Part shown: piece by piece, positions 18,537 through 36,960 of the stretch | How positions within the stretch are numbered: position 1 is the first letter of the stretch | Layout of the letters: each line of letters starts with the position of its first letter | Source: a virus | DNA length: 45,228 bases | IMG/VR virus record: IMGVR_UViG_3300015371_000075 | Location: 1 to 45,228 of that record | Reading direction: 5' to 3' (one strand) | Translations under genes and position numbers: made by a program | Notes under the pieces: model-generated | What the model was told of the DNA's origin: nothing | What the model saw: only the letters and a program-made list of their open reading frames with translations | Databases searched by the model: none

Positions 18537-19166
18537 ATGGCCGAAGAGAATGAGAACTACGAGGGCGAAGAGTCCGAACAAGTAGAACAAACACCGACCT
18601 GGGCACTTTCTCAGGATGACTGGAAACAGCTTCAGCAGAATCAGATTGAGCTAACCAATATGGTTAAGTCTCTATTTGAGCCTGAGGAAGAGTATTACCC
18701 TCAGATGCCCGAACCGGGACAGTTTGATCTAAATGATCCGCGTCAGTTGGCTGCGCTAGTGGGCGCTGTAGTGGATGATCGGATGTCCACTATTTCTCCG
18801 TATGTCCGTAATGCAGCACAGGATCAGGGCAAGAGAGAGATGTACTCGATGTTCGATGGTTTTTCAGATCAGTGGAAGGAAGAGTTTCCTGATGGGTTTG
18901 ATAAAGACTTGGCTGAAAGAACTGCTCATTACTTTTTTGAGCAGACTGGTGACGCTGCTAAGTCCGTTGAGGAAGCTGCTAGGTATGCCGCCACGATCCG
19001 TAAGAGCGACCGTGAGGCCGCTGTAGATGAAGTCCGGTCACGGGCTACCCGGAGGGGCTACGGGGCTACAGACGAACCAGGAGGCACTACAGCCGTCCCT
19101 GCGAGGGAGCCTGCCGGAAGCTACGATGAAGTCATCGAGCGGTACACTCACCAGACCGAATTGTAA
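18537..19166 (+). CDS. Scaffolding-like protein
   Basis: 209 aa. The N-terminal acidic region (MAEENENYEGEESEQVEQ) then Gln/Pro-rich helical segments, with basic residues near the C-terminus (RSRATRRGYG), are the composition of phage scaffold proteins. The order portal then scaffold is the usual head-gene order, though the capsid gene is elsewhere (42999). Its own near-leaderless promoter suggests high, separate expression. Confidence 0.65.
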   Translation: MAEENENYEGEESEQVEQTPTWALSQDDWKQLQQNQIELTNMVKSLFEPEEEYYPQMPEPGQFDLNDPRQLAALVGAVVDDRMSTISPYVRNAAQDQGKREMYSMFDGFSDQWKEEFPDGFDKDLAERTAHYFFEQTGDAAKSVEEAARYAATIRKSDREAAVDEVRSRATRRGYGATDEPGGTTAVPAREPAGSYDEVIERYTHQTEL

Positions 19167-19276: not shown

Positions 19277-19717
19277 TTGAATACAGAAACCATCACAGTA
19301 GAGGATGTCTCAGGGCCTAACGCCAACGGTTGGCGCGAGGTTACGTTTGAAGACGGACGTAAGGCATCCACTAAGGATGAAGACATCGCTAAGGAAGCGT
19401 TTCAGTCTCGGGGCAACCCGGTCGAGGCGGTAATCAGCGTGTCTAAGAATGGTAAGTTCACTAACACGTATCTGAATCAGATTAATGGTGTTGGTGAGGC
19501 GAAGCCTAAGGGCAGGCCGTCCAGTAATGGCGGCAGTAAGACTGCTTCTAGGGGTCGCACTCCTGCTGAGAATGAACGGATCGCCCGACAGTGGGCCTAT
19601 GGCCGCGCTGTCGAGTTGCTGGTCGGTTCAGGAGCGGAGTTCGCTTACCCGCTTGATGATGCCACTCTGTCAATGATTAAGACTCAGGCAGAGTCGCTTC
19701 TCAACGCAACAAAGTAA
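19277..19717 (+). CDS. Hypothetical protein, leadered, TTG start
   Basis: 146 aa. TTG 19277 lies 6 nt after a perfect AAGGAGGT SD. The N-terminal part is beta-rich (VSGPNANGWREVTFEDGRKA), then a Lys/Gly/Ser-rich linker (KPKGRPSSNGGSKTASRG), then a helical end. The layout recalls a small single-strand-binding-like protein but no motif proves it. The strong SD next to leaderless genes suggests different translational control. Confidence 0.7.
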   Translation: MNTETITVEDVSGPNANGWREVTFEDGRKASTKDEDIAKEAFQSRGNPVEAVISVSKNGKFTNTYLNQINGVGEAKPKGRPSSNGGSKTASRGRTPAENERIARQWAYGRAVELLVGSGAEFAYPLDDATLSMIKTQAESLLNATK

Positions 19718-19719
19718 GG

Positions 19720-19725
19720 TATAAT
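19720..19725 (+). promoter_or_regulatory. Consensus TATAAT box of the tRNA gene
   Basis: TATAAT ends 6 nt before 19732, so transcription would start at the first base of the tRNA. It is a perfect -10 consensus. Confidence 0.6.
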
Positions 19726-19731
19726 CTACAA

Positions 19732-19800
19732 CGCCGGATAGAGCCAGGGGTTCGCTGAGTTTCATATGCTCAGTAGGAGGTTCGAGTCCTCGTCCGGCCC
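19732..19800 (+). tRNA. tRNA with CAU anticodon (Met or Ile2 type), compact
   Basis: A cloverleaf can be drawn by hand. The acceptor GCCGGA (19733-19738) pairs with TCCGGC (19793-19798), leaving a C1-C72 mismatch. U8 A9 are present. The D stem GAGC/GTTC has a 5-nt loop, the anticodon stem is CTGAG/CTCAG, and the anticodon CAT is at 19763-19765. The T arm GAGG-TTCGAGT-CCTC has one mismatch at its base. No CCA is encoded. A11-U24 and the mismatched 1-72 pair are initiator-like; only two of the three anticodon-stem G-C pairs expected of initiators are present. tRNA-Ile(CAU) is an alternative. Confidence 0.65.
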
Positions 19801-19805
19801 TTAAT

Positions 19806-20447
19806 ATGAAAGCAATCTGGAGAGCTAATCCATATGGGCCTAAGTGGCCTCCTTGGGATAAATTTAGAGCCAAGGGAGTTACGGACATCTATTTCCCTAC
19901 TCGTCGTCTTGAGTTTTCAACTGGGAAGTACATCCGTAATGATCTACAGCTTTATTTTGATTACAAACAGGGAGTAGAGTCCCAGGGATTTGGTTACAGG
20001 CTTTGCCGTGATCCTTCCTGGGACTCTATTTTTGATCCCATTCAACTAGTTAGTTCTGCTGTCTCCGATATCCGCTCTGTATCTACGGGGTATATCCCGT
20101 ATATGTTTGACATCGAGTATCACAACCCAGATTATGTCGAGACTACCTTTAAAGAGTTTCGGAAGGTATTCCCAAAGGGGCCTGTCGCCTGGACGCTAGA
20201 ACCGTTCCAGGCTGGTTGGTTTACAGACAGTCTCATTGACACCTTGAATAACGACATCAATCTGGTTGTAGTCGTACAGAACTTCTTCGGGAACATGGCT
20301 CCTGCAGGCAAGAGGAATGGAAGAACTCCCGCAGAAGAGTTGCTTGATGCAGGTATCAGCACTAACAGAGTGAAGACGTTTTATGACGGTCAGCTTGCTC
20401 TGCCTGCTGGATGGGATGGAACCATCCTCTCTGAAGAGAGAATCTGA
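19806..20447 (+). CDS. TIM-barrel-like protein, possible glycosidase
   Basis: 213 aa following the tRNA by a few bases. Alternating beta/alpha pattern with acidic residues at strand ends (YMFDIEYHN near 100-108, VAWTLEPFQAGWF, VVVVQNFFGNMAP, VKTFYDG). This resembles phage proteins I recall with a predicted TIM-barrel glycoside-hydrolase fold, but no catalytic pair is certain. No signal peptide. It shares its transcript with the tRNA. Confidence 0.6.
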   Translation: MKAIWRANPYGPKWPPWDKFRAKGVTDIYFPTRRLEFSTGKYIRNDLQLYFDYKQGVESQGFGYRLCRDPSWDSIFDPIQLVSSAVSDIRSVSTGYIPYMFDIEYHNPDYVETTFKEFRKVFPKGPVAWTLEPFQAGWFTDSLIDTLNNDINLVVVVQNFFGNMAPAGKRNGRTPAEELLDAGISTNRVKTFYDGQLALPAGWDGTILSEERI

Positions 20448-35457: not shown

Positions 35458-36960
35458 TTACTTCATGCCAAGGTCAAAAGTAAGGAAGGAGATATAAGCC
35501 AATTCCCAGGCCCCTACTTCTGTAGGAACGGTTCCACCCGCAACAGTCTGTCCTGCATAGCTGAGGGAAGATGTTTCTGTAATCGTGCAGGAAACAGCCC
35601 TGTAAACCCCGATTGAATAGAAGTCCTGATAAGACTGGAAATACAGAGGCCCCCAGAGAGTATCTGGGTCATCCCACTCATAAAGGGGATCATCCCAGAT
35701 TGCCCCACCAGGATTAAGAGAGACATCCAATGCTCCACGGGAAGCTCCATTCTGGTAATCCTTATAGATATCTACAGAGAAATCTCCGCGTCCTACGACG
35801 CGAGCCATACGAAGACGAGCCTTCCGGCTCTCTGCCGGTTCTGCCCATCGAGTCTGAAAGATGGAAGTAATAGCTGTACCTGCATCAGTTCCGCCCTTCC
35901 CGAAGTTATAAATCCTTCCGTTTGACGTAGGTGAACCGAAGATCATATCGGTGTTCGTTTCGTTGATTGCTGCATACGCAGAACCAGCATTCGTATGCAC
36001 GGTTAGCCATTTAGCATCTGGGTTGAATTCTAGGGCGATTGAGTTCGCGGTAGCACCCGCGCGAGGGAGAGAGAAGTAAAGCCTGTCCTGGTATCTACCA
36101 GCGCAATACAAGTCGCTTCGCGTCTGGTTAATCTGCGCTTTATGAAAGAGAGGCTCCATCAGACGGCTTTCTTCCCTCATAGGGTTAAGACCATCTGTTG
36201 AGTAGATGCCCCTCGTGCTAATTACATATGTTCGTCCGTAAGCTGAGACACCACCAATGTTGCTACCGCAACCGATGGAGGGGTCAATAGTCTGGTAGGC
36301 TCCAGTCGATGGATCGTTGACGCGGTAAGCAGAGGCATCCTTAAAGACAAGCAAACCCGGTCGCCCGGCGATATCGAGGCCGGAAGCCCCAGCAAGGAGA
36401 GTAATTCGGGCAGAATCTTTCTCCCGCAGGTCAACGAAAGAGTTGACCCCGAAGGTAGATGGATTTCCAGCATCACTTCTCCAGAGTCTTGCAGGAACGA
36501 GGACATCATTTACCCAAACCTTATTCTGCCATGTCGCACATGTAGTGCCTTTCGGCGCTGATGCGACGGCGGATACCGTTGTTCCATCGTATACATAAGA
36601 TCCATCGGTGGGGTGCGTGAAGAAGAGGTTTCCTCCAAACTCACAGATACCGGCCCTCTCGCTGGTGGTGAAAGTCTTGAATGCAGCCGCAGATCCTCTA
36701 TGAAGTCCTGCACCAATCTGCTGGACAACTTCCCCTTTGGTAGCCCAGTAGAAAATGTTACTAACAAGTCCAGTCCCAACCTGAGTTCCATATCTGTCTT
36801 CATAACCAAGGCGCTTCATAGCATACCCGCGCTCGTCAATAGTTACGTTGCTTGAATACGGGAATTCGTTAGGAGCAAGCTCAGAGGGCCAGTCACGGGC
36901 ATTAGTCCCTCCACTGAAGTCCCTGAAAACTAGATCCCTAGGCGGTCTGCTTTTAGCCAC
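35458..36960 (-). CDS. Tail nozzle / stabilisation-type protein
   Basis: 500 aa. N-terminal VFRDFSGGTNARDWPSEL and the pattern N-V-x-D-x-x-G-x-x-x-x-R-x-G (NVTIDERGYAMKRLGYED) are typical of podovirus nozzle, tubular B or P22 gp10-like beta-propeller proteins. Rest is beta-rich with many Gly/Thr. Joins the adaptor (36970) to the fibres. GTG start, leaderless. Confidence 0.8.
   Translation of the reverse strand: MAKSRPPRDLVFRDFSGGTNARDWPSELAPNEFPYSSNVTIDERGYAMKRLGYEDRYGTQVGTGLVSNIFYWATKGEVVQQIGAGLHRGSAAAFKTFTTSERAGICEFGGNLFFTHPTDGSYVYDGTTVSAVASAPKGTTCATWQNKVWVNDVLVPARLWRSDAGNPSTFGVNSFVDLREKDSARITLLAGASGLDIAGRPGLLVFKDASAYRVNDPSTGAYQTIDPSIGCGSNIGGVSAYGRTYVISTRGIYSTDGLNPMREESRLMEPLFHKAQINQTRSDLYCAGRYQDRLYFSLPRAGATANSIALEFNPDAKWLTVHTNAGSAYAAINETNTDMIFGSPTSNGRIYNFGKGGTDAGTAITSIFQTRWAEPAESRKARLRMARVVGRGDFSVDIYKDYQNGASRGALDVSLNPGGAIWDDPLYEWDDPDTLWGPLYFQSYQDFYSIGVYRAVSCTITETSSLSYAGQTVAGGTVPTEVGAWELAYISFLTFDLGMK

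Follow-up and report, generated by a model that had tools for sequence, protein, structure and literature searches.

The initiator tRNA has been described by two major features, the mismatch at positions 1x72 and the three G-C pairs of the anticodon stem (3GC pairs), and the latter are described as strongly conserved among the initiator tRNAs of every domain of life and are said to matter when the 30S initiation complex passes into the 70S complex (PMC7949028). The pairs G2:C71, C3:G70 and A11:U24 assist formylation, to which the 1x72 mismatch has also been tied (PMC7949028). When the 3GC pairs of an E. coli initiator are mutated, charging and formylation persist, but the tRNA is inactive in initiation (PMC10486304). 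Most initiation on leaderless mRNAs takes place on 70S ribosomes, and extra fMet-tRNA is reported to boost their translation strongly (PMC9031893). VapC toxins cleave tRNA-fMet between A38 and C39 (PMC4105405), and a recent study that proposed nuclease evasion as a role of phage tRNAs holds that tRNA-fMet is generally avoided by phages (PMC10264068).

How does a phage tRNA with the CAU anticodon, lying between a promoter and a start codon, compare with these systems? Here, we analysed a virus record of 45,228 bases, and the window in what follows is this whole stretch of DNA. We give a probability of about 0.6 to the reading that its tRNA is a phage tRNA(CAU) of initiator type, from a class in which the 3GC pairs have been replaced, and not an elongator tRNA-Met or tRNA-Ile2. 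In our best reading, the element would be a diverged initiator-type tRNA, and its class is undescribed in the open papers searched. Going by its sequence, it is not a canonical initiator, since the 3GC pairs are replaced, A73, CCA and a normal D-loop are absent, and the Rfam tRNA model RF00005 misses it.

The tRNA gene and its promoter

The only tRNA that ARAGORN predicts in the window is tRNA-Met(cat) at 19733-19800, and when the whole window is dinucleotide-shuffled, it predicts none (0/60 shuffles). RNAfold gives a clean cloverleaf of -30.6 kcal/mol (z -3.1 against shuffles), and the compact CAU tRNA proposed in an earlier note on this DNA is thereby upheld. With position 1 at C19732 and position 73 at C19800, the element has 69 nt (19732..19800, plus strand, as are all features of this locus), and CCA is unencoded. 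The 5' strand of the acceptor stem reads C1 G2 C3 C4 G5 G6 A7 (19732..19738) and the 3' strand, in the covariance-model alignment, U66 C C G G C71 C72 (19793..19799), which gives C.C at 1-72, G-C at 2-71 and C-G at 3-70. After UA follows the D arm GAGC-CAGGG-GUUC (19741..19753) with A11-U24 and a loop of 5 nt (CAGGG) that is without A14 or A21. A single G leads to the anticodon arm C-UGAGU-UUCAUAU-GCUCA-G (19755..19773), which has six pairs, the anticodon CAU at 19763-19765, U31.G39 and also U38, and UA leads on to the T arm GGAGG-UUCGAGU-CCUCG (19776..19792), whose loop is canonical and whose outer pair, G49.G65, is mismatched. The discriminator is C73 (C19800), with A73 absent, while acceptor pairs 2-7, the anticodon loop and the T-loop are intact.

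All the formylation features, that is, the 1x72 mismatch, G2:C71, C3:G70 and A11:U24, are found in this tRNA (4/4), and the A11-U24 pair, the 5-nt D-loop and the unencoded CCA that the earlier note had reported are all present in the register starting at 19732. The same note had credited the anticodon stem with two of the three G-C pairs, which needs correction: the three diagnostic pairs are A29-U41, G30-C40 and U31.G39, and G30-C40 is the only G-C pair (1/3). This set of pairs is the typical one in the phage class described below.

The C1xC72 mismatch depends on the register. All three covariance models described below (3/3; R1, R2 and R3) pick 19732 as position 1, and the mismatch claimed earlier holds there, but it is lost in the register favoured by ARAGORN and RNAfold, which is shifted by one base to start with G19733 paired to C19798, and has a terminal U.G. 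The idea that the mismatch is a mere register artefact was dropped, since three covariance models put C19732 at position 1 and C1xC72 is also found in L183, a canonical cyanobacterial initiator. On the window record, RF00005 has no match even at E 10 (its cut-off is 29 bits), and the Rfam search by gathering threshold and E-value yields at best tRNA-Sec, whose 20.4 bits fall short of the cut-off of 47. An exact 26-nt piece of the tRNA is absent from the viral contigs searched.

The -10 box TATAAT (19720..19725) lies 6-7 nt upstream of the 5' end of the tRNA and two bases past the stop codon of an upstream gene of about 146 aa (19277..19717), which is conserved in the related contigs L002, L003 and L017. 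Leaderless-type starts are common in this phage, as the earlier note had held: a -10-like box lies 5-9 nt before the in-frame start in 18/59 ORFs, most often at 6 nt (7 cases) or 7 nt (6 cases), compared with 45/1272 for ATGs anywhere in the window genome. For example, a -10-like box is followed 6-8 nt on by a gene start at 18537, 40089 and 44259 on the plus strand and at 36960 and 40066 on the minus strand. Based on this spacing rule, transcription from TATAAT is predicted at C19732 (6 nt) or G19733 (7 nt), in agreement with the proposal that the tRNA starts where the transcript would.

The tRNA is followed by a 5-nt spacer, UUAAU (19801..19805), and then by the ATG of a gene of 213 aa (19806..20447), just before which there is no Shine-Dalgarno stretch. 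This gene has no Pfam or PHROG match. Its product contains conserved aromatic and acidic motifs (WPPW, YMFDIEYHNP and WTLEP) and looks like a glycoside-hydrolase-type barrel.

From this arrangement, we infer the following course for an initiator-type tRNA. Transcription would begin without a 5' leader from TATAAT, and the transcript of the 19806 gene would probably open with the tRNA. The 3' end of the tRNA would be trimmed and CCA added by a host enzyme; the tRNA would then be charged with methionine and formylated, and act as an additional or substitute initiator in the infected cell. Charging and formylation are plausible, since the acceptor and D-arm features are kept, whereas use in canonical initiation is less certain, since the 3GC-mutated E. 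coli initiator is inactive (PMC10486304).

A class of CAU tRNAs in phages

The stretch GAGUYUCAUAWGCU is common to the tRNA of the window and that of L022, a related viral contig, and a pattern made of it and the T arm has matches in at least 119 viral contigs. The arm pattern of the class, GAGUYUCAUAWRCU, was derived from these two tRNAs, and the fit of the window tRNA to it, with U31.G39, is therefore circular by itself. Among the matches listed, nearly all lie within ARAGORN tRNA-Met(CAU) genes, and many of the phages carry further CAU tRNAs. In bacterial and archaeal genomes, of which 257 billion bases were scanned, a stricter pattern has only 26 matches. Relatives annotated as tRNA-Met are also present in isolates, such as Gordonia phage GMA2, Synechococcus phage S-CRM01, Stenotrophomonas phage Moby, Roseobacter phage DSS3P8, Mycobacterium phage Bongo and Streptomyces phage Patelgo.

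At L027, L033, L068, L112 and other viral loci, the same anticodon arm occurs with odd D arms or acceptors, and ARAGORN misses or misregisters these copies; consequently, the class is probably under-counted in annotations. In addition, the genome of the bacterium Methylocucumis oryzae (L157, L187) contains, besides a canonical GGG/CCC initiator, an initiator-like tRNA of the GAGU/GCUC kind, which may lie inside a prophage.

Class features were counted on 89 well-aligned unique copies among the matches listed, some of which are related in sequence. The 1-72 position is mismatched in 62/89, A-U or U-A in 26/89 and G-C in 1/89, while G2-C71 is found in 86/89, C3-G70 in 76/89, A11-U24 in 49/89 and U31.G39 in 74/89; A73, the usual base for Met, in place of which the window has C73, is found in 74/89. 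Pair counts on 40 aligned class copies agree, with strong covariation. The controls are 29 further CAU tRNAs from the same phages, with G-C at 1-72 in 27/29 and C11-G24 in 29/29, and no control CAU tRNA among those scored has a GGG/CCC anticodon stem (0/39). By these counts and the hallmarks listed in the review (PMC7949028), the class is an initiator body without the 3GC pairs. No earlier description of phage initiator tRNAs with altered stems was found in the open-access literature, which is weak evidence of novelty, since open papers alone were searched.

Three covariance models were used for class scoring: R1, a phage initiator-like model of 40 class copies with the window and L022 left out; R2, an elongator Met/Ile2 model of 29 CAU tRNAs of the same phages; and R3, a canonical bacterial initiator model of only 7 sequences gathered by the GGG/CCC pattern. 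The window tRNA scores 42.9 bits with R1 (E 1.7e-8), 29.4 with R3 and 22.4 with R2, and the L022 tRNA 43.3 with R1, 22.9 with R2 and 22.4 with R3. Since R1 was collected by the arm pattern and is to that extent circular, R3 was added and the anticodon arm was removed for rescoring. The arm-less score of the window tRNA, with positions assigned by hand in the register starting at 19732, is +25.8 bits for the class versus the elongator controls. With one sequence left out at a time, 40/40 class members are positive (8.8 to 77.4) and 29/29 controls negative (-69.7 to -18.1), and L022 in the standard register reaches 2.0 bits only. In phages with multiple tRNAs, class copies score higher with R3 than with R2, and the other CAU tRNAs score far lower with R3 than with R2: R3 versus R2 is 67.5 versus 52.2 at L031:4369 and 57.2 versus 45.4 at L050:8714, but 50.1 versus 82.6 at L040:4474.

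These scores make it highly improbable that the element is an ordinary elongator tRNA-Met or tRNA-Ile2 (CAU), aiding internal AUG or AUA codons. The CAU anticodon would suit such a tRNA, and ARAGORN and the deposited annotations say tRNA-Met. However, R2 is the lowest of the models at 22.4 bits, and the window tRNA is without the G1-C72 and C11-G24 pairs seen in 27/29 and 29/29 of the controls. The earlier note had set an elongator or Ile2 identity against its own proposal, and when this was tested, the elongator/Ile2 model fell behind both others (22.4 versus 42.9 and 29.4 bits). Its initiator-type assignment is borne out by the class scores, but not as a canonical initiator, with the 3GC pairs absent and the element too divergent. 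Counted against the initiator-type reading are the missing 3GC pairs, C73, the 5-nt D-loop, the G.G outer pair of the T stem and the RF00005 miss, as well as the near-equal R3 and R2 scores (22.4 versus 22.9) of L022, the only close relative with a tRNA.

The altered pair 31-39 lies exactly at the VapC cut site A38/C39 (PMC4105405), with U.G in 74/89 copies among the matches listed. The tRNA could then be a toxin-resistant replacement, in which G39, and in the window also U38, would sustain initiation when VapC-type toxins cut the host tRNA-fMet. The class would also change the picture of phages said to avoid tRNA-fMet (PMC10264068). However, neither these phages nor their hosts have been linked to a VapC, and we consider this explanation unlikely, although it is compatible with the initiator-type reading and does not exclude it.

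As for the link between the window tRNA and leaderless mRNAs drawn in the earlier note, we find it a reasonable conjecture. Nevertheless, leaderless use is not the general reason for the class, since the class is common in many other phages, some of which (for example, L115) have a Shine-Dalgarno-like sequence before the next gene. More speculatively, and with considerable doubt on our part, the class may be a widespread phage initiator tRNA in which the features for charging and formylation are kept and the 3GC pairs checked on the 30S route are dropped, which would suit direct 70S initiation on leaderless-type mRNAs and be insensitive to toxins acting at position 39. The altered stem would fit 70S leaderless starts, given the role of the 3GC pairs in the passage from 30S to 70S and the leaderless-type starts of this phage, and it would fit toxin escape, given the VapC cut at 38/39 and the G39 of the class.

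Relatives of the phage and the gene gap

Searches with the portal and exonuclease proteins gathered a small family of viral contigs. No relative of the window was found at the DNA level in the phage collection, and searches with the downstream protein and the terminase gave few or no further relatives, with none among genome contigs. The nearest annotated proteins, at about 25% identity, belong to phages of actinobacteria.

In L022, the corresponding gap between genes is occupied by a CAU tRNA, after a TACAAT box that lies 8 nt before G58. This tRNA ends 6 nt (UAAAAA) before the ATG of a 216-aa gene, and no Shine-Dalgarno stretch is found just before that ATG. A hairpin, AUCAGGGGGAGG...CCUCCCCCUGAU (L022:1-44), lies directly 5' of the -10 box, like the stems in L002 and L003, and is perhaps the terminator of the upstream operon.

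The upstream proteins of L002 and L003 differ at a single residue, and neither contig has a tRNA in the gap; the window tRNA is therefore not essential to the phage family. Other strong structures are found there, and the orthologue of the downstream gene begins 6 nt after the -10 box TACACT. In L003 (13530-13610; the same in L004), an H-type pseudoknot-like element, GUCCGA..GCCACG..UCGGAC..CGUGGC, is followed by a strong G-rich hairpin, while L002 (3695-3783) has a different, very stable branched stem, AUCAGGGGG...CCCCCCUGAU, with a z of -5.4 for the gap. Between these two contigs the flanking proteins are nearly identical, and the gap and the downstream gene strongly different, as if the RNA element and the gene had been exchanged together as a cassette. 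L017 lacks the downstream gene, and the stop codon of its upstream gene is followed by a terminator-like hairpin. The idea that the gap is a mere site of variable structured RNA, such as the L002 stem and the L003 pseudoknot, was dropped, since L022 has a CAU tRNA at the same place.

The position of the tRNA could also be explained if it were chiefly a tRNA-shaped 5' leader, cut by host tRNA-processing enzymes after position 73 to leave a near-leaderless mRNA (UUAAU-AUG), for which charging would be unneeded. In the window and in L022, only 5-6 nt separate the tRNA from the ATG, with no Shine-Dalgarno sequence just before that ATG, and the tRNA-less L002 and L003 place the same gene 6 nt after the -10 box. 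Such tight spacing is rare in the class, an ORF starting no more than 10 nt past the tRNA in 6/105 copies among the matches listed, two of which are the window and L022. However, genes close to tRNAs are frequent in compact phage genomes, and a leader of this kind leaves the kept initiator-type identity positions unexplained; on balance, it is an improbable account.

We regard as quite unlikely a further alternative, that the element is a functionless, decaying copy of an initiator-type tRNA that is losing its D-loop, a T-stem pair and A73. The low scores with general tRNA models, the G49.G65 mismatch, C73, the tiny D-loop and the tRNA-less relatives L002 and L003 would be in keeping with decay, but acceptor pairs 2-7, the anticodon loop, the T-loop, the promoter spacing and the place before the ATG are all intact, the fold is stabler than that of shuffles (z -3.1), and L022 keeps a diverged tRNA at the same place.

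Comparison with known systems

Found widely in phages and annotated as tRNA-Met, a tRNA that combines an initiator body with the absence of the 3GC pairs bears on both the described conservation of these pairs (PMC7949028) and the stated avoidance of tRNA-fMet by phages (PMC10264068). It would prompt one to ask whether phages seize translation initiation or shield it against host toxins, and isolates that carry the class, such as Gordonia phage GMA2 and Synechococcus phage S-CRM01, would allow a direct test.

With bacterial tRNA-fMet, the window tRNA shares the CAU anticodon, a mismatched 1-72 position, G2-C71, C3-G70 and A11-U24, and the cyanobacterial initiator L183 has the same C1xC72. Unlike bacterial tRNA-fMet, the window tRNA has no 3GC pairs, U38, C73, a tiny D-loop and no CCA.

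In the tRNA punctuation of mitochondria, tRNA processing releases the adjoining mRNAs. There, as in the window, a tRNA abuts the start codon of a leaderless-type mRNA, whereas the window tRNA stands at the promoter start and its cleavage is putative.

In arm and body, the window tRNA resembles the phage tRNA-Met(CAU) with the arm GAGU-YUCAUAW-GCUC, found in at least 119 viral contigs, and its cousins in isolates, which, as in the window, have this arm or U31.G39 together with an initiator-type body. Compared with that class, the window copy, at 69 nt, is the shorter one; it has a 5-nt D-loop, C73, and C4-G69 where G4-C69 is usual, and it is located directly before an ATG.
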